Assembly: GCA_903875575.1 (NCBI GenBank)
Contig: CAIQWJ010000065.1
Span: 1 to 64,000 of the forward strand
Direction: 5' to 3'
DNA from: an uncultured Acidobacteriia bacterium
GTDB taxonomy: Bacteria > Acidobacteriota > Terriglobia > Bryobacterales > Bryobacteraceae
Length of the DNA: 64,000 nucleotides
The first letter of the stretch is position 1. Each line of letters opens with the position of its first letter. Shown in pieces: positions 40,797-48,600 of this stretch. The notes under the pieces were generated by a model that was not told where the DNA came from, searched no databases, and worked only from the letters and a program-made list of their open reading frames with translations. Position numbers and translations under genes: made by a program.

Positions 40797-41831
40797 TTAC
40801 CTCTTTGCGAACAGATAGTGGGAGACGAGCCATTCCCCGCCGTCGCGGTAGCCCCATAGCTCTGCGCAGGCCATGTAAAAGACGCGCCAGCGCACAAACC
40901 AGAGCAGCGCGTTCTCTTTGCCGTAAGTCTTCTCGAAAATATCCAGAATTTCCCAGCGATTGGCGTCCATGTTCGCAAGCCACGCTTCCGCTGTCTTCTG
41001 GTAATGCACGCCGGGAAGCCGCCAATGCTCCTGAATCGCAAAGTCGTCCTGGAAGTGCAACAGAAGATCGTCGCTCGGCATGATGCCGCCGGTAAAGAAG
41101 TGACGAGCCATCCAGTCGCCCGGGCCGCGATCGTCAAAGGGATACGCGAATGTACGGTGGGTGAAGATGTGCACGAAAAGCAGCGCGCCCGGCTTCGACC
41201 ATGACGCAATGCGCCGCATAAGTTCCTGATAGTTGCGCATGTGTTCGAACATTTCCACCGAGACGATACGGTCGAAACGCAGCGCGGTATCAAAACGATT
41301 CATGTCCGCCGTCACGATTTCCAGATTCCGCAGCCCCAGACGCGCGGCCTCGCCATCAATGAAACGCTTCTGCGAATGCGAGTTGGAAACCGCTGTGATG
41401 CGGGACTTCGGAAACTTCGCTGCCATGTAAAGAGACAACGATCCCCAGCCGCAGCCCAGTTCCAGCACCGCCTGGCCATCTTCCAGTCTGGCGCGTTCGC
41501 AGGTCAGTTGCAGCATCACGTCTTCTGCAACCGCAAGCGTATTGACACCCTCCGGCCAGTACGCACTGCTGTATTTTCGCCGCGGCCCCAGGCACTTCAC
41601 GAAGAAACCGGCCGGCACTTCATAGTGCTGCTCATTGGCGGCCTTCGTTTCAATCGCAATGGGGGTTTGTCGAAGTTCCTCTACAAATCGCAGCAGCCGT
41701 GCGCGCTGAAGATCCGGATCGCCGGCGTCTTCTTCATGCAGCCTTTCGCGCAGCAGCCGACGGATGCCAACCCGGATCAGCCAGTCCGGGATGATGTCTT
41801 TTTCGAGTAGTGTTTCGGAAGTGAGAGACAT
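40797..41831 (-). CDS. CFA-synthase-superfamily SAM methyltransferase (coclaurine N-methyltransferase-like)
   Basis: The 344-aa protein has a SAM motif [16 protein letters not shown] (about residues 122-137) and EMFEHMRNY. The [13 protein letters not shown] and [15 protein letters not shown] segments typify the plant CNMT-like branch rather than true cyclopropane synthases. The position equivalent to the Cys of the E. coli YSCAYW motif is Ser (YSSAYW, 87-92). The substrate is unknown; a lipid or amine is possible. Its start shares a base with the DUF1295 stop (TAATG). It is the fifth gene of the carH unit. Confidence 0.85.
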
Positions 41832-42625
41832 TAGAATTGAGAAGACGGCTTTCGCGGAAACCACGGAATGAACATGCTGGTGGTTTGCTGGTAGCGCCGG
41901 TACGCGTCGCCCTTTGTACGTAGCGCTTGTGCTTCGGTGGCGGGAATACCCGTGACCCGAAGCAGAAAGTAGAGGATCATCGCGGGCGAGAGCAGCCCGA
42001 TCCACCCCCACGGCGAGGCCAGTGCAAACACGGCATACGCGATCCAGATGAGCGATTCGAAGAAGTAGTTCGGATGCCGGGAATAGTTCCACAGCCCGAT
42101 ATCACAAAGCCGCCCGCGGTTCGCAGGATTTTGCTTGAAACTGTGAAGTTGCATATCTGCGGCAACTTCACCGCAGATTGCCACCAGCCACAACGCCCCG
42201 CCCACGTACTCCAGCGGGGAAAGCCCGGGTGCGGGATTGATTGCGCTGAATAGAAACGGGCCGGAGAGCGCCACGCACAGCACCGCCTGGAACTCGAAGA
42301 ACGCCAGGAACTTCAGCGGGATCTTCGTCTTCCACTGGCGGCGAAGTTCCTGATAACGGCCTTCTTCCGGATGACCGATCACCCGCGTCAGCAACAGGTA
42401 AAGACCCAGCCTGAGGCCCCATACGGACGCCATTCCCGCCATCAGCCACGCGCGCGTGGAATCTCCGTGCCCCGCTGCGGCAAAAAGCACAGCCAGAATC
42501 ACAAGCCCGCCCGCCCAGCCCGCGTCCACAATCGCGGCGTTCTTCATGGGAAGGTGCAGGCACCACAGCAGCAACATGAGCGCCGCAACACTCCCTGTCC
42601 CCAGCAACAGCAGATGGACAATCAT
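41831..42625 (-). CDS. DUF1295 membrane protein
   Basis: The 264-aa protein has about seven hydrophobic segments. The DUF1295 signature is seen in [20 protein letters not shown] and in [19 protein letters not shown] (a steroid 5-alpha-reductase/ICMT-like cofactor region). Homologues are often next to FAD amine-oxidase and CFA-type genes. A reductase or methyltransferase activity on lipids is plausible but unproven. It overlaps the DUF2062 gene by 4 bp upstream and the methyltransferase gene by 1 bp downstream. Confidence 0.87.
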
Positions 42626-43110
42626 TGTGCAACCTCGCGCCGCGCAGCCAGACCGCGCACCGGAACCAGCAGAATCCGATAAATCGGAAACACCGCCAGT
42701 CCCACAAAAACCGCCCAAACCGCAAGCGCGTGCATGGTCGCAGACCACAAAGTCACGACGGCATTCCACATGTTGGCCTCCACAAGCCTCCGAATAAGTT
42801 CCAGCGTAATGCGACTCTCGGCAGCCCCGAACGCCCTCTCCCCGGCACGGATGAACGGCACCAGAAGCGCCAGTTGGAGCGGTGACATCAGATAATTCAC
42901 AATCTGGATGGCCGCCGGATTCAACCGCAGAACAAATGCGGCAATCACGCACAGAATCGTAGTGGAGCCAATCATCGGTGCCACTCCCAGCGTGATCCCG
43001 AGTGCCATTCCCAGCGCAATCTTCTCTGGCGTTACCCCCTGGCGAAGCAGCGCCAGAACAGGCTCGACGATTCTCTTACGCCAGAAGCCAGCCTCCGCGG
43101 ACGAGTCCAT
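42622..43110 (-). CDS. DUF2062 membrane protein
   Basis: The 162-aa protein has the DUF2062 core GVTPEKIALGMALGITLGVAP (about residues 25-45) and several transmembrane segments. The ATG at 43110 is chosen because it forms a TGATG junction with the DUF1475 stop; the frame is open 33 codons further upstream but lies inside the DUF1475 gene. The function of the family is unknown. Confidence 0.8.
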   Translation of the reverse strand: MDSSAEAGFWRKRIVEPVLALLRQGVTPEKIALGMALGITLGVAPMIGSTTILCVIAAFVLRLNPAAIQIVNYLMSPLQLALLVPFIRAGERAFGAAESRITLELIRRLVEANMWNAVVTLWSATMHALAVWAVFVGLAVFPIYRILLVPVRGLAARREVAQ

Positions 43111-43442
43111 CACGCCCGCCGCCACAGGATAGTTTCCACGCTCTCTGATGCCGGAAGCCGAAGCAATTCGCGGAGAATATACGCCGACATCGCAATGTTT
43201 CCGAGGCACATGATCAGGATGAACCAGATGATTCGCCCGGCGATCCCCCTCTCCTTATAAGCGACCCAGACATAAACGGTGATGAAACCGCCATAGGCAT
43301 CGTAGAGCGTCGCCACAGCCCACGGATTGGCCGAAAAGCCGCGCCAGGAATCCCACAAACTGACCTGCAGACTGGTGCGCACAGTCGCTACCACCATCCA
43401 CACAAAGATAAAGCCGAACAGCACCTTCAGACCAGTTCTCAT
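43110..43442 (-). CDS. DUF1475 small membrane protein
   Basis: The 110-aa protein has three hydrophobic segments and the family pattern NPWAVATLYDAYGGF followed by WVAYKERG and IMCLGNIAMSAYIL. It overlaps the carH stop by 3-4 bp (ATGA). The function of DUF1475 is unknown; its placement directly behind a B12 photoreceptor gene suggests a role in the light response of the membrane, by inference. Confidence 0.8.
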   Translation of the reverse strand: MRTGLKVLFGFIFVWMVVATVRTSLQVSLWDSWRGFSANPWAVATLYDAYGGFITVYVWVAYKERGIAGRIIWFILIMCLGNIAMSAYILRELLRLPASESVETILWRRA

Positions 43443-44356
43443 TCTGTACCCCTTTGCCGCGACTCTGCCAGAAGACGCTCCAGTTCGCGTAAATTCTCTA
43501 CGTAAACGGAATCCTGCCGATTCGCCTTACTCATTGCCACAAGCGCTCCGGTACCGCCAAACCAAAGTTCCATGCCTTGCGGCATTCCCGCCGCAACCTC
43601 ACGGACAGTTTCCACCGCAATAGCTGATGGCTCCGGCGTTGTCATGCCGAGGAGCAGTATCCGTGGCGAAAAACGCTGCACTGCAAAAAGAATTTCCGCC
43701 GCAGGAAGATTCGGCCCCAGGCACGCAACCTGATACCCCGCGGTGCCCGCGATCACGGAGGCAGACAGAATCCCCAAATCATGGAGTTCCCCCGCCGGAG
43801 TGGTAGCCAGAAATCGCGGTTGATCTTCAGCCGCTCGGTGCAGGCGAGTCATTGCGCCTAACAGATTGCGAACGCTTTCGGTGGCAAGGTGCTCCTGCGC
43901 CGCGTGCAGCGTCCCGGCGTGCCACCTCTCTCCCACCTCACGCATGAATGGCAGGGCGACCTGGTGGACAAACTCGCTCGTCGTGAGCAGGGTCGCCAAA
44001 CGACCCAACTCCAGATTCAACCGCCCGCCATCAAATGATTCAAGCGCCATCATTGCAGGATCGAAACCCGCAGGAGATACGGGCCGCGCCAACCTTGGAG
44101 GTTCCACCGGTGCACGTCGATCAGCCAGCATCTTCAACTCCACGTCAGGAAGGGCGCTGGCCTCGCCGATGGAATAGCCGGTCCGCAGAGCTTGCTGAAG
44201 GTCCAGCAGACGCTGCACGTCGGTATCACTGTACGCTCGCCCGCGCCCGGCTCGGCTTGGCGTGACCGCCTTATATCGGCGCTCCCAGGCTCTCAGAGTG
44301 TCTACGCTGAGGCCGGTCATGCGGGCAACCACGCGAATTGGATATTGCTGCGACAT
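43439..44356 (-). CDS. carH: CarH/LitR-type MerR regulator with B12-binding photoreceptor domain
   Basis: The 305-aa protein has a MerR winged helix (about residues 6-72, with WERRY at 24-28) and a C-terminal cobalamin-binding module. W145-x9-E155-H156 matches the adenosylcobalamin motif of CarH. H146 directly after the Trp corresponds to the His that binds cobalt after light exposure in Thermus CarH (W131-H132), and E190-L-H192-D-L-G195 corresponds to the lower-ligand motif (ExHxxG). Distances between these positions match within one residue. It is therefore expected to repress in the dark as an AdoCbl tetramer and release DNA in light. It is divergent from the desaturase gene and first in a five-gene coupled run. 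Confidence 0.92.
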   Translation of the reverse strand: MSQQYPIRVVARMTGLSVDTLRAWERRYKAVTPSRAGRGRAYSDTDVQRLLDLQQALRTGYSIGEASALPDVELKMLADRRAPVEPPRLARPVSPAGFDPAMMALESFDGGRLNLELGRLATLLTTSEFVHQVALPFMREVGERWHAGTLHAAQEHLATESVRNLLGAMTRLHRAAEDQPRFLATTPAGELHDLGILSASVIAGTAGYQVACLGPNLPAAEILFAVQRFSPRILLLGMTTPEPSAIAVETVREVAAGMPQGMELWFGGTGALVAMSKANRQDSVYVENLRELERLLAESRQRGTE

Positions 44357-44370
44357 GCCGGTGCACCACC

Positions 44371-44399
44371 AGCGTAGCGCGCGCCGTGCCTGCCGTCAA
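44371..44399 (-). promoter_or_regulatory. carH promoter
   Basis: On the minus strand TTGACG (44399 to 44394) and TACGCT (44376 to 44371) are 17 nt apart. Transcription would start near 44364, about 8 nt before the carH ATG, so the leader is very short. Confidence 0.55.
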
Positions 44400-44420
44400 G
44401 TCTTTGTCCATGACAATCGC

Positions 44421-44449
44421 TTGACATATACAGAATTCCCTTCTAAACT
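44421..44449 (+). promoter_or_regulatory. Desaturase-operon promoter with TATACA CarH/LitR-like element
   Basis: TTGACA (44421-44426) and TAAACT (44444-44449) are spaced by 17 nt. The -10 box ends 6 nt before the ATG at 44456, so the mRNA should be leaderless. TATACA (44427-44432) directly follows the -35 box and resembles the LitR recognition element; a bound CarH tetramer would block polymerase. Two T-n-n-A-C-A units occur in tandem here (44421 and 44427) but not at the 11-bp spacing of known CarH repeats. Confidence 0.65.
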
Positions 44450-44455
44450 ACACCT

Positions 44456-45292
44456 ATGGGCAGAAATGCGACATCCCGTACAGGTGAATACCGGTTTGGC
44501 GCAGTTTTCGGATTTATCTTTCTGCACCTGTCCGCTCTTGGCGTGTTTCTCCTGCCGTTCTCCCCTCGTCTGGTGCTTTGGCTTGCGGCAACCTACAGCC
44601 TGAGGATGTTCGCTGTAACCGCCGGATACCACCGCTACTTCAGCCATCGCAGTTACAAGATGGGCAGGGCCGCCCAGTTCGTCATGGCGTTTCTCGCCCA
44701 ATCATCAGCCCAGAAAGGCGTTCTCTGGTGGGCAGCTCAGCACAGGGACCACCACCGTCATTCCGACAATGAGGACGACGTCCACTCCCCAGTCCAGCAG
44801 GGTTTCTGGTGGTCACACGTGGGCTGGGTCCTGTCCAATAAGCACGATTCCTACGATCCGAAGCGTGTGGCGGACTTTGGGAAATACCCGGAACTTCGCT
44901 GGCTGGACCGTTACCACTGGATTCCGACCACAATCTTCGCGGCGGTAGTCCTGGCCGCTGGCGGGTGGCCAGCCTTTGTCTGGGGCTACGTACTTTCAAC
45001 CGTCGTCCTGTACCATTGCACTTTTTCCATCAACTCGCTCGCACATCTCTTCGGAACGCGGCGTTTTAACACCCCGGACGATAGCCGAAACAACTGGTGG
45101 CTCGCATTGATTACATTCGGAGAAGGCTGGCACAACAATCACCACTTTGTGATGGCCAGTTGCCGGCAGGGCTACCGTTGGTGGGAGATCGACATCACGT
45201 ACGCCATCCTGAAACTCCTCAGCATCACCGGCATCGTGCGGGAGTTGCGGCCTTTTCGAATTCCCCGGCACCTTGCGCAGGAGGCTGCCTAA
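44456..45292 (+). CDS. Membrane fatty acid desaturase (acyl-CoA/lipid delta-9-type)
   Basis: The 278-aa integral membrane di-iron enzyme has all three His boxes: H59-RYFS-H64, H96-RD-H99-H100 and H226-NN-H229-H230. Hydrophobic segments between them fit the two-hairpin topology. It introduces a double bond in acyl chains. It is the first gene of the plus-strand unit divergent from carH, and its product would supply the unsaturated acyl chains the downstream CFA-family methyltransferase needs. The start has a promoter directly before it and no SD. Confidence 0.92.
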   Translation: MGRNATSRTGEYRFGAVFGFIFLHLSALGVFLLPFSPRLVLWLAATYSLRMFAVTAGYHRYFSHRSYKMGRAAQFVMAFLAQSSAQKGVLWWAAQHRDHHRHSDNEDDVHSPVQQGFWWSHVGWVLSNKHDSYDPKRVADFGKYPELRWLDRYHWIPTTIFAAVVLAAGGWPAFVWGYVLSTVVLYHCTFSINSLAHLFGTRRFNTPDDSRNNWWLALITFGEGWHNNHHFVMASCRQGYRWWEIDITYAILKLLSITGIVRELRPFRIPRHLAQEAA

Positions 45293-45293
45293 A

Positions 45294-46541
45294 TTGCGGA
45301 TCGCGGTCATCGGCAGCGGCATTTCCGGTCTCGCCGCCGCGTACTACCTGAGTCGCGCACATGAAGTCACTGTCTTCGAAAGCGCTTCACGCACAGGTGG
45401 CCACACGCACACCGTCACGGTCGATTCGAGCGAAGGGCCTCTGTCAGTCGACATGGGCTTTATCGTGCACAATGACCGCACTTATCCAAATCTGATGCGA
45501 CTGTTTGCCGAACTGGGCGTTCGCACGCAACCGAGCGACATGTCGTTCAGCGTCTTCAGCCGCGAAACCGGTTTTGAGTATTCGAGCCGCGGCCTGACCG
45601 GCTTTTTCGCGCAACGCGGCAATCTTCTGCGCAGAGAACACTACCGGCTGCTGCGCGAGATCCTGAGATTCAACCGCGAAGCCCCCCGTTTCCTGACTGA
45701 GAAAGACAACGAAGAGCTCACCATCGGCGAATACCTGCGGCGAGGCCGGTTTGACGAGGGCTTTGTCCAGCACTATCTGTTTCCCATGGCCTCGGCAGTC
45801 TGGTCCATGCCTGTCGCGGCGATGCATGACTTCCCCGCCCTCACGCTGATTCGTTTCTTCGAAAACCACGGCATGCTGGGAATTGACACTCATCCGCAGT
45901 GGAAGAGCGTGACCGGCGGCAGCCAGAGTTACCTTGGGCCCATCACGGCGCCGTACCGCAATAACATCCGCCTCAATGCGCGCATCACGGGCATCACCCG
46001 CCGGTCAGACGGCGTCACGGTGCATCAGGCAACGGAGCCATCCGAGGACTTTGACGATGCCATTTTTGCCTGCCACGGGAATCAGGTGCTGCCCTTGCTA
46101 TTGGAACCCACCGCCACGGAACGAGAAGTTCTTGCCGGTTTTACAACCAGCAAAAATGAGGCATGCCTGCATAGCGACGAGAATCTCCTGCCCACCCGTC
46201 GGAACGCGCGCGCTTCCTGGAATTACCTTCTGCCGCCCCATCCGCAGTCCGGCGCGACGCTGACTTATCACATGAATCGGCTGCAGTCTCTTCCGGCCCG
46301 CGAGAACTACTGCGTCACGTTGAACGCCAACAGCTTCATTGACCCGGCCAAAGTCATTCGGCAGATGACGTTTCACCATCCGGTCTACAACGCCGCCGCC
46401 ATTCGCGCGCAACAGCGCTGGGCTGAAATCAGCGGGCACAATCGGACGCACTTTTGCGGCGCGTACTGGTTCTACGGTTTTCATGAAGACGGCCTCAATT
46501 CGGCAATCCGTGTGGCACAGTCCCTGGGGGTCACGCCGTGA
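45294..46541 (+). CDS. FAD-dependent amine-oxidase-like oxidoreductase
   Basis: The 415-aa protein has an N-terminal FAD-binding motif GSGISG (residues 7-12) followed by an Rx(GG)-type segment RTGGHTHTV. The family pattern includes VDMGFIVHNDRTYPNL and SMPVAAMHDFPA. Homologues form the conserved trio with DUF1365 and CFA-type genes in light- and singlet-oxygen-response regulons. The TTG at 45294 is favoured over TTG 45273 because AGGAGG (45279-45284) lies 9 nt upstream. Its stop overlaps the DUF1365 start. It probably oxidises or reduces a lipid intermediate. Confidence 0.88.
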   Translation: MRIAVIGSGISGLAAAYYLSRAHEVTVFESASRTGGHTHTVTVDSSEGPLSVDMGFIVHNDRTYPNLMRLFAELGVRTQPSDMSFSVFSRETGFEYSSRGLTGFFAQRGNLLRREHYRLLREILRFNREAPRFLTEKDNEELTIGEYLRRGRFDEGFVQHYLFPMASAVWSMPVAAMHDFPALTLIRFFENHGMLGIDTHPQWKSVTGGSQSYLGPITAPYRNNIRLNARITGITRRSDGVTVHQATEPSEDFDDAIFACHGNQVLPLLLEPTATEREVLAGFTTSKNEACLHSDENLLPTRRNARASWNYLLPPHPQSGATLTYHMNRLQSLPARENYCVTLNANSFIDPAKVIRQMTFHHPVYNAAAIRAQQRWAEISGHNRTHFCGAYWFYGFHEDGLNSAIRVAQSLGVTP

Positions 46542-47311
46542 CTTCCGCCATTTACACGGGAACGCTGCGCCACCGCCGGTTCAAGCCGGTCAGCCATGAA
46601 TTCACGTATCCGGTCTTCATGACGTTTCTCGATATCGACCGCATTCCGGAACTCATGGACGTTTCACCCGTTTCGAGTTACGAAAGCTGGAACTGGGCCA
46701 GTTTTGCCGAGAGGGATCACTTGGGCGATCCGTCCCTCTCTCTGCGGGAACGCATCGCGGCGGATGCCATGCGGGCGGGCGTACCTTTCGCCGATGGTCC
46801 GATATTTCTCCTGACCAACCTTCGCTATCTCGGCTACACATTTAACCCGATATCTCTGTTCTACTGCTATCGAAAGACCGGAGAACTGCAGTCGGTACTC
46901 GCGGAGGTCAACAACACTTTTGGGGAGTCGCGGAACTACTGGCTCTCGCCCGCAAACCAGTTGCCCGCCGCCAATTCCCTGCATTATCGGTGTCCGAAGA
47001 CAATGCACGTATCGCCGTTCATGCCGATGGAACTGGATTACGATTTCATTCTCACGCCGCCGGCCGAGTCGCTGGTCGCGCACATGAACACGCTCGACAA
47101 CGGCACGGTAAATCTCGACGCAACGCTCACGCTTGAGCGGCACGAGTGGTCCGCGAACGCACTGCACCGTGCGCTGATATCGCATCCGTGGATGACCGCA
47201 AAAGTGATAACATCCATCCATTGGCAGGCATTGCGTCTGTATCTGCGTAAGGTTCCGGTCTTCACGCACCCGGATCGCCGCGTACCACTTCCGAAAGGGG
47301 CCTCACAATGA
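46538..47311 (+). CDS. DUF1365 protein
   Basis: The 257-aa protein matches DUF1365: GTLRHRRFKPVSHEFTYPVFM at the N-terminus, LTNLRYLGYTFNPISLFYCY near 86-105, VLAEVNNTFGE near 115-125 and an MPMELDYDF segment. The reaction of the family is unknown, but genes for it consistently lie between amine-oxidase-like and CFA-like genes, as here. The GTG start overlaps the previous stop (GTGA) and the end overlaps the next start by 4 bp. Confidence 0.9.
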   Translation: MTSAIYTGTLRHRRFKPVSHEFTYPVFMTFLDIDRIPELMDVSPVSSYESWNWASFAERDHLGDPSLSLRERIAADAMRAGVPFADGPIFLLTNLRYLGYTFNPISLFYCYRKTGELQSVLAEVNNTFGESRNYWLSPANQLPAANSLHYRCPKTMHVSPFMPMELDYDFILTPPAESLVAHMNTLDNGTVNLDATLTLERHEWSANALHRALISHPWMTAKVITSIHWQALRLYLRKVPVFTHPDRRVPLPKGASQ

Positions 47312-48600
47312 TCTCTCACCAGTTCGCTCAGACGCCGTTCTTCCGCGCCATGCGCGCCATACGGGAAGGTCATCTCGAGATCATCTCAGATGGGCACCGC
47401 CAGTACTTCGGCGATTCCGCGGCAACCCTTAGGGCTACCGTGCAGGTACACAATCCCCGCTTCTTCCGCCGTGCGCTGCTGCAGGGAGACATCGGCATTG
47501 GCGAAGCATATATGGATGGCGACTGGACGTCACCGGACGTCACGTCCGTCATCCGGCTCGCCGTACGCAACTTAACCGCGATAGAATCGTCGAACTCCTG
47601 GTTTTCCGCCCTGAGCCGCGCAACAGATGCCTTCCGCCATACGCGCCGCGCGAATACCATCGCAGGCAGCAAGCGAAACATCAGCGATCACTACGACCTG
47701 AACAACGACTTTTTCCGGCTGTTCCTCGATTCCCGCATGGTTTACTCCTGCGCCTGGTATGAGAGTGCGGACGACACGCTGGAAACCGCGCAGTACCAAA
47801 AGCTCGACCGCGCCTGCCGGAAGCTCCAGTTACAACCCACCGACCATCTTCTGGAGATTGGCACGGGCTGGGGCGCGATGGCAATCCACGCGGCCAGCCA
47901 TTACGGCTGCCGCGTGACCACAACAACCATCAGTCGTGAGCAGTTCGAATACGCAAAAGAGCAGATTGCACGGGCCGGACTCAGCAGTCAGATTGAATTG
48001 CTGCTGGTCGACTATCGGAATCTGCGCGGCCAATACGACAAACTGGTCAGCATCGAAATGTTTGAGGCCGTCGGTTTCGAATTCTACGATACGTTCTTCG
48101 GAGCGTGCGATCGGCTCCTGACAAAGGACGGCACGATGCTCCTGCAGGCAATCACGATGAACGACCGCAAATTCCCGGTATACCGAAAACGCGCGGACTG
48201 GATCCAGAAGTATATCTTTCCCGGTTCGGAACTTGCCTCCATAAGCGGAGTCTGCGCATCACTGGCCCGCGCCACAACTTTATCTCTTTTCAATGCCGAA
48301 GACATGGGGACGCACTACGCCAGAACACTTGCAGCATGGCGAGAACGCTTCCACGATGCGCTTCCTTCAGTAAAGGCACTCGGTTTCAACGACCGGTTCA
48401 TCCGCATGTGGGATTTCTACCTCGCTTACTGCGAGGGCGCGTTTCTGGAGCGCCACATCAGCGACGTCCAGTTTCTGCTCACGAAGAGCTATTCGCAGAA
48501 AAACCTGCTGAACGAGCCGTGGGATGCTATTCCGGCACCGCGGTCCGAACCGGCAGATCCCGCTGTTACGCTTTACGCGCAACCCAGAGCAACAGGCTGA
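47308..48600 (+). CDS. cfa: Cyclopropane-fatty-acid-synthase-family SAM methyltransferase
   Basis: The 430-aa protein has an N-terminal lipid-binding domain (about 1-115), then DHYDLNNDFFRLFLD, VYSCAWYE (C148) and the SAM site LLEIGTGWGA (181-190). E253 in EMFEAVG follows. By alignment to E. coli Cfa from memory, the bicarbonate-site Cys (C148), Glu, Ile (I282) and Tyr (Y338) are kept. The His of LLHTI becomes Q280 in MLLQAITM. It methylates double bonds of phospholipid acyl chains; the final product (cyclopropane, methylated or furan-type chain) is uncertain. It overlaps DUF1365 by 4 bp. Its 3' end overlaps the convergent kinase gene by 35 bp. Confidence 0.9.
   Translation: MISHQFAQTPFFRAMRAIREGHLEIISDGHRQYFGDSAATLRATVQVHNPRFFRRALLQGDIGIGEAYMDGDWTSPDVTSVIRLAVRNLTAIESSNSWFSALSRATDAFRHTRRANTIAGSKRNISDHYDLNNDFFRLFLDSRMVYSCAWYESADDTLETAQYQKLDRACRKLQLQPTDHLLEIGTGWGAMAIHAASHYGCRVTTTTISREQFEYAKEQIARAGLSSQIELLLVDYRNLRGQYDKLVSIEMFEAVGFEFYDTFFGACDRLLTKDGTMLLQAITMNDRKFPVYRKRADWIQKYIFPGSELASISGVCASLARATTLSLFNAEDMGTHYARTLAAWRERFHDALPSVKALGFNDRFIRMWDFYLAYCEGAFLERHISDVQFLLTKSYSQKNLLNEPWDAIPAPRSEPADPAVTLYAQPRATG

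Follow-up and report, generated by a model that had tools for sequence, protein, structure and literature searches.

Why should a gene for a CarH-type, cobalamin-binding light sensor head one operon of membrane-lipid enzymes and face another? The question is raised by a 64,000-nucleotide stretch of DNA from an uncultured Acidobacteriia bacterium (Bryobacterales, Bryobacteraceae; contig CAIQWJ010000065.1 of assembly GCA_903875575.1), referred to below as the window, in which carH heads a five-gene minus-strand run that faces a four-gene plus-strand run. A first-pass annotation of the DNA had described these two runs, with overlapping gene junctions, and had predicted that light switches the lipid genes. 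All nine named genes are present as described, and the prediction gains support, as a prediction, from the light-response residues of CarH, from an operator that holds both −35 boxes and is absent where CarH is absent, from the specificity of that operator in whole genomes, and from its presence at a photolyase gene in one relative (G189). We conclude that the locus is probably, at a probability of roughly 0.6 for this explanation as a whole, a self-contained light switch for acyl-chain remodelling that includes a furan fatty acid route.

The argument starts from the 99-bp gap (44357–44455) between carH and the desaturase gene. The first-pass annotation had placed both promoters in this gap, and −35 and −10 boxes for each can be read there; it had missed a 31-bp dyad, the predicted CarH site (Table 1). 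The outer arms of this dyad double as the two −35 boxes, the right half-site on the desaturase side and the left half-site on the carH side. An 11-bp step separates inner from outer half-sites, and the outer TTGACA fits the pattern TnnACA. A search for CarH repeats, three in tandem, in the divergent gaps stayed near shuffled background in most loci (window score 10, p 0.10); comparison of its outputs is what revealed the dyad, which was then scored. It reaches at least 18/20 in 25 of the 27 CarH loci scored, and 9–11/20, the level of shuffled sequence, in all eight CarH-less clusters scored, three of which (L084, L087 and L088) have gaps of only 13–38 bp; the shuffles used for the tandem-repeat, dyad and promoter tests preserve base composition only. 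The gaps of CarH-less L075–L078, L082 and L104 are too short to score, CarH loci L039, L053, L061, L064 and L066–L068 have no usable gap to a plus-strand gene, and L063, whose hit-derived gap is negative, was dropped, its genome (G204) having a perfect site. The inner TTGTC-N3-GACAA is almost as conserved as the outer arms, and the spacers vary more between loci. The right arm reads TTGACA in 24 of 25 loci and the left arm TTGACA or TTGACG in all 25. Because a hexamer scan always takes the best hexamer at 15–19 bp, our claim for −10 boxes rests on a recount of TAnnnT at 16–18 bp from the −35 box, which gave 14/25 on the right and 23/25 on the left, where shuffles expect about 1/25 each. By eye, stretches of metagenome-assembled genomes titled Herminiimonas and Gemmatimonadetes (L170 539–569 and L158 1160–1190) carry more TTGTCC or TTGGACAA-like repeats downstream of the site, which suggests larger compound operators there.

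The dyad is also specific at the scale of whole genomes. In the window's genome the copy at carH is the sole site within three mismatches, so that no second target of the kind a wider light regulon would have was found within that limit. We then define a family set of 31 genomes, the window's included, in which CarH shares 39% identity or more with that of the window: 29 have the dyad at carH with at most three mismatches, none has a second site with at most two, and the three additional three-mismatch sites (two in G013, one in G024) compare with four for a reversed-pattern control. The 31 CarH-less family genomes hold no site with at most two mismatches and five sites in all, each with three mismatches (reversed pattern, one). 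An exact scan for the 18 fixed bases across 84,980 species genomes, possibly excluding the window's own, returned 49 stretches, for a chance expectation of about four (by arithmetic, at even base composition). CarH and/or the lipid cluster stands beside the site in 46 of them: 34 show CarH with a plus-arm lipid gene, seven CarH only, five lipid genes only and three neither; many of the 49 are contigs of genomes in the set from which the dyad was derived. Across the wider phylum, 20 of 40 mapped CarH loci have a site scoring at least 16/20 and 13 at least 18/20; for the 11 that also carry the trio of flavin adenine dinucleotide (FAD) oxidoreductase, DUF1365 and CMAS genes, the figures are nine and eight. 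Figures for the 49 stretches, the 40 phylum loci and the locus counts are final values from a script recount. In G189, the gene across an 18/20 site from carH encodes a DNA photolyase.

Some further placements of the site were seen in passing. Four assemblies have two operator sites on separate contigs (L135/L154, L139/L164, L147/L155 and L156/L161), which points to a second target in some lineages. CarH genes or sites of the phylum also lie near ferrochelatase, SDR/epimerase, SRPBCC, DUF2177 and NmrA-DUF2867 genes (L154, L139, L159, L039 and L233–L244). A photolyase reading of an open reading frame (ORF) in L176 was dropped when Pfam did not confirm it.

Is the regulator itself equipped to sense light? 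It scores 53.4 bits for Pfam MerR_1 and 34.5 for B12-binding_2, both above cut-off, and the top solved match over both regions is Thermus CarH. The elements through which adenosylcobalamin (AdoCbl) mediates the light response, GxxW, EH, GxxH and GxxxP, have been defined (PMC11796333). All four occur in the window's protein, as GERW, EH (in QEH), GELH and GPNLP, and an alignment of 43 CarH ORFs from the order shows the cobalt-ligand His and the Glu-His kept in every one, the Trp in 41 and the Pro in 42. The window's genome also encodes a PduO-type adenosyltransferase, which could supply AdoCbl.

The association of this regulator with lipid genes is widespread. At E ≤ 1e-15, 41 of the order's 257 genomes encode a CarH homologue, as do 67 of the 396 sampled across the phylum, and DUF1365 occurs in 57 of the 257 (two of these hits are fragments); from genome lists compiled by hand, 32 genomes of the order have both, nine CarH only, 25 DUF1365 only and 191 neither (Fisher p 1.8e-17, which ignores relatedness). 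One or more plus-arm genes adjoin carH in 29 of the 31 family CarH genomes, the exceptions being G189, with the photolyase gene instead, and G221, where the contig ends; the pairing is thus more than chance. CarH, desaturase, FAD oxidoreductase, DUF1365, both methyltransferases, DUF1295 and DUF1475 stand together in 16 loci including the window, whereas the DUF2062 gene is absent or located elsewhere in several relatives. Among the family genomes that carry the cluster are G201 and G045, assembled in 2 and 4 contigs. Wherever a locus of the order shows an FAD gene together with a CMAS gene, DUF1365 is present as well (56 of 56). CarH and the lipid enzymes covary in pairwise identity (Spearman 0.82–0.89, 27 loci), as expected of genes inherited together. 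In the phylum, FAD, DUF1365 and CMAS genes occur in the neighbourhood of CarH in 11 of 40 mapped loci; the FAD gene is cut by a contig end in L240 and L242 and stands by itself in L257. A second family within the order has a distant CarH (26–29% identical) beside a same-strand lipid run in six stretches (L069, L072, L073 and L101–L103), in the order desaturase, FAD, DUF1365, methyltransferase, DUF1295, methyltransferase, and several of its loci show, by eye, TTGTATA-like repeats about 11 bp apart upstream of the desaturase.

What would these enzymes make? The plus-strand methyltransferase has E. coli CFA as its best solved relative. We take Cys139, Glu239, His266 and Tyr317 to form the bicarbonate site of E. 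coli Cfa, with His266 as bicarbonate ligand (the numbering of the E. coli CFA chain is offset by one from the usual). The window's enzyme keeps Cys139, Glu239 and Tyr317, with Gln in place of His266, and so lacks the complete site; Gln holds that position in all 62 aligned CMAS sequences (the window's, 56 from the order and five Pseudomonadota plasmid copies), and 33 of them have Ser or Ala in place of Cys139. The minus-strand methyltransferase, which the first-pass annotation had called CFA-like, is nearer to other enzymes than to CFA synthase: among solved structures it matches the coclaurine and pavine N-methyltransferases of plants best, and we re-read it as FufM-like. The Arabidopsis methyltransferase AT4G33110 presumably belongs to the CNMT-like group. 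FufM, the Rhodopseudomonas enzyme that produces dimethyl furan fatty acid (PMC7380195), is 38% identical to AT4G33110 (PMC10940516). The FAD, DUF1365 and CMAS-family genes encoded together in the window are those of the UfaD-UfaO-UfaM route, in which the DUF1365 protein UfaO of Rhodobacter and Rhodopseudomonas adds oxygen from O2 and forms the ring, and whose diunsaturated methyl intermediate gives, for a C18 chain, a fatty acid methyl ester of 308 Da (PMC7380195); a consecutive trio is described in Halomonas, whose UfaM was tested in E. coli (PMC12089945). The desaturase matches acyl-CoA desaturase 1. On these matches, one locus would hold candidates for every step from a saturated chain to a dimethyl furan chain, and the only strong CMAS-family hits in the genome (301.6 and 127.8 bits, the other eight being below 35) are the two genes of this locus.

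The DUF1365 protein has no sequence relative in the PDB (best E 0.69). Its AlphaFold2 model (predicted local distance difference test score, 87) weakly resembles fatty-acid-binding-like Ycf58 and nitrobindin barrels, with no match at E ≤ 0.001 in the fold search (best E 1.3e-3, TM 0.37/0.55), and is kept out of the argument; the resemblance may offer a lead for how UfaO handles O2.

Table 1. Genes, predicted operator and predicted promoters of the carH locus, in window coordinates.
Feature	Position	Strand	Reading	Remarks
carH	43439–44356	−	MerR-type DNA-binding domain and cobalamin-binding light sensor	MerR_1, B12-binding_2 and B12-binding profiles; best matches Thermus CarH 5c8d, 3whp
DUF1475-like small protein	43110–43442	−		Only C-terminal part of Pfam profile matched; in most family CarH loci
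DUF2062 protein	42622–43111	−		Probable start ATG 43111; longer ORF starts 43209
DUF1295 protein	41831–42625	−	Steroid-reductase-like protein	Paired with CMAS-family methyltransferase gene 40797–41831
FufM-like methyltransferase	40797–41831	−	S-adenosylmethionine-dependent methyltransferase	Coclaurine-N-methyltransferase-like branch of CMAS family
Acyl desaturase	44456–45292	+	SCD1-like	Delta-9 specificity inferred
UfaD-like protein	45273–46541	+	FAD oxidoreductase	TTG start, from mechanical ORF list
UfaO-like protein	46538–47311	+	DUF1365 protein	Profile match
UfaM-like protein	47308–48600	+	CMAS-family methyltransferase	E. coli Cfa His266 replaced by Gln
31-bp dyad operator	44395–44425		Predicted CarH site, GTCAA-N4-TTGTC-N3-GACAA-N4-TTGAC	GTCAAGTCTTTGTCCATGACAATCGCTTGAC; 20/20 match
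Desaturase-operon promoter	44421–44449	+	−35 TTGACA 44421–44426, −10 TAAACT 44444–44449	17-bp spacer; 6 nt to ATG
carH-operon promoter	44371–44399	−	−35 TTGACG 44399–44394, −10 TACGCT 44376–44371	17-bp spacer; 14 nt to ATG

Given the chosen starts, each minus-strand junction overlaps by 1–4 bases, and the plus-strand junctions overlap by 20, 4 and 4. The end of an opposing ORF, kinase-like by eye, overlaps the final 35 bases of the plus-arm methyltransferase gene (48566–48600).

From the gene content and its conservation, the operator, the promoter geometry and the signature residues, all read directly from the DNA, we infer light release, a series of enzyme steps, a furan product and a protective role, as follows. 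In the dark, AdoCbl-loaded CarH would bind the single operator as two inverted half-site pairs, cover both −35 boxes, and repress its own operon (carH, DUF1475, DUF2062, DUF1295 and the FufM-like gene) together with the facing one (desaturase and the UfaD-, UfaO- and UfaM-like genes). Light would split the Co–C bond of AdoCbl, CarH would leave the DNA, and both arms would come on together. The desaturase would then provide a cis double bond for methylation by the UfaM-like enzyme, the UfaD-like enzyme would desaturate further, the UfaO-like protein would insert oxygen and close the furan ring, and the FufM-like enzyme, alongside DUF1295, would add a second methyl group; the resulting lipids would act as membrane quenchers of reactive oxygen. 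CarH very probably regulates through the 31-bp dyad, the signal is likely to be light, and for furan fatty acids as the product we see little better than even odds.

A number of observations weigh against this explanation or narrow it. On the side of the regulator, the B12-binding domain of the window's CarH scores 28.3 bits, just below the Pfam cut-off of 32.1, and the whole protein reaches 101.5 bits where the NCBIfam CarH equivalog NF052513 demands 400, so that it is best described as a relative outside that narrow ortholog group. On the side of the operator, the dyad was scored on the same loci from which it was read, the genome-wide scans being only partly independent; two scored CarH loci have poor sites (L047, 16/20, with the Trp changed to Tyr, and L042, 14/20); 11 of 25 right arms have no TAnnnT at 16–18 bp; G066 and G067 carry CarH without a site within three mismatches; and only half of the phylum's mapped CarH loci have a site of 16/20 or better. 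The second family has no dyad upstream of its desaturase (best 9–12/20, eight loci), and the operator claim therefore stops short of it. As to gene content, G189 has carH without the lipid cluster, and the desaturase is found in 22 of 32 family CarH loci, six others having an FAD gene without it. In G024 (93% complete) carH, the operator, the desaturase and the minus arm are present and no DUF1365 was found in the genome, which means that a furan route alone cannot account for the arrangement in that case. Conversely, 22 of 23 mapped stretches from CarH-less genomes with DUF1365 show no CarH (G248 has a weak one), and the two-armed lipid cluster is kept in 14 of these stretches (L075–L078, L080–L082, L084–L088, L092 and L104), 10 of them without the desaturase and four (G077, G126, G160 and G222) with it; since the lipid genes persist without it, CarH is not essential to the cluster. 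The Ufa and FufM labels were given by family and literature description, and among the literature matches listed we found no role for DUF1295 in furan synthesis.

Which other explanations could account for the same locus? One keeps the light switch and changes what it makes: methyl-branched or cyclopropane chains, or more unsaturated lipids, without a furan ring. A plus-strand methyltransferase that belongs to the CMAS family, is nearest to E. coli CFA and retains Glu239 and Tyr317 would suit such a product, as would the gene content of G024, which fits a simpler lipid change in that genome; moreover, we take actinobacterial pairs of FAD and CMAS genes to make 10-methyl chains. We nevertheless consider this rather unlikely for the window, given the loss of the His266 position throughout the alignment and of Cys139 in over half of it, and the unbroken company that DUF1365, the family of the ring-forming UfaO (PMC7380195), keeps with FAD and CMAS genes in the order.

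The two remaining alternatives concern the switch rather than the product. The regulator might report B12 status or oxidative state, as a CarH relative that depends on AdoCbl to bind DNA but does not serve as a photoreceptor. Its low NCBIfam score would be in keeping with this, and departures from the canonical mode are known in the CarH/LitR family, where CarA and class II LitR work without B12 (PMC8156234, PMC9758184). We regard it as improbable, however, because all four light elements are present, the G189 dyad site has a photolyase gene behind it, and ferrochelatase, SDR, SRPBCC and DUF2177 genes lie near other sites or CarH genes. Alternatively, the dyad might be nothing but back-to-back strong promoters kept by promoter constraint, or the site of another regulator, with CarH acting elsewhere, an idea invited by the fact that its outer arms are −35 boxes. 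This we find very hard to sustain: the inner element is conserved nearly as well as the outer arms, and the site vanishes from the CarH-less clusters scored (with the reservation about short gaps given above) and, at two mismatches or fewer, from the CarH-less genomes, and follows CarH to a photolyase gene in G189. The CarH-governed light switch with a furan route remains the explanation that we prefer.

How does this arrangement compare with known systems? The window's protein shares with the CarH proteins of Thermus, Bacillus megaterium and myxobacteria a MerR-type domain and a cobalamin domain with GxxW, EH, GxxH and GxxxP; the described proteins control carotenoids, whereas the window's faces acyl-lipid genes. 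Control of carotenoids was considered for the window's genome as well and set aside: its only two squalene/phytoene-synthase hits are HpnC and HpnD-like (252 bits against a cut-off of 278.6), and no dedicated phytoene synthase was found in the genome (crtI was not searched for). As in described CarH operators, the site overlaps a −35 box, its half-sites are spaced by 11 bp and the outer ones fit TnnACA. Described operators are same-direction 11-bp repeats, of which Thermus and Bacillus have three or four, the sets of myxobacteria being more degenerate (PMC8156234, PMC9304148); the window's dyad, in contrast, consists of two inverted pairs that point apart and hold two −35 boxes. The light-inducible genes of the Pseudomonas class II LitR proteins PplR and PmlR include UfaM and a neighbouring FAD oxidoreductase (PMC9758184), and UfaM(-like) and FAD oxidoreductase genes are thus common to that regulon and the window's locus. 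The differences are that PmlR2 is the effector of a LOV protein whereas the window's regulator itself has the AdoCbl light elements, that the Pseudomonas site is TGTACA-N12-TGTACA, and that the Pseudomonas photolyase and folate genes are not among the window's nine. With the RpoE-ChrR singlet-oxygen regulon and the furan route of Rhodobacter and Rhodopseudomonas the locus shares the FAD, DUF1365 and CMAS trio and a second methyltransferase; it differs in having CarH in place of the sigma/anti-sigma pair, and an added desaturase, DUF1475 and DUF2062 gene.

Six Pseudomonadota plasmid stretches, chosen by eye from 265 and 98 matching records, show related modules. The DUF1295-methyltransferase pair recurs on the Burkholderia, Cupriavidus, Mesorhizobium and Rhizobium plasmids. 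In Burkholderia, Mesorhizobium and Rhizobium tropici it is found with FAD-DUF1365-methyltransferase genes beside a sigma/anti-sigma pair (ChrR annotated in the last two), and in R. tropici the two lipid arms are divergent, as in the window. The Ensifer plasmid has sigma/ChrR beside part of the gene set and no annotated DUF1295; on the Azospirillum plasmid sigma/ChrR accompanies FAD-DUF1365 and a methyltransferase gene that is short; and on the Cupriavidus plasmid the lipid genes lie beside a photolyase and a TetR gene, with no sigma/ChrR annotated in the stretch. A sigma/anti-sigma pair thus accompanies the lipid genes on five plasmids, with ChrR annotated on four. The ties to light and singlet-oxygen regulons that the first-pass annotation had named are borne out by these annotations and by PMC7380195 and PMC9758184. 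In the open-licence literature, none of the matches listed joined furan fatty acid with Acidobacteri-, and the only match listed for CarH, Acidobacteri-, light and cobalamin was a tetrapyrrole review; the further matches listed include none on this link, which is no proof that it is unpublished.

Taken at its widest, the comparison suggests that heterotrophic Acidobacteriota respond to light, through a dedicated B12 photoreceptor and a single dyad in each genome, by producing mono- and dimethyl furan fatty acids, which would replace carotenoids as quenchers in the membrane, and that the lipid module has been swapped between ChrR (singlet oxygen) in Pseudomonadota and CarH (light); we offer this tentatively, at somewhat less than even odds. 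More modestly, what was noticed in one genome should be read as a switch conserved in the family, for which the natural CarH-less relatives provide a ready comparison. With two divergent promoters under one compact operator, the site could find use as a part for green-light control. If the explanation is right, CarH regulons would reach from pigments to membrane acyl chemistry, a single locus with its own switch would bring together candidate genes for dimethyl furan fatty acids, the desaturase among them, and soil Acidobacteriota would have a testable light response.

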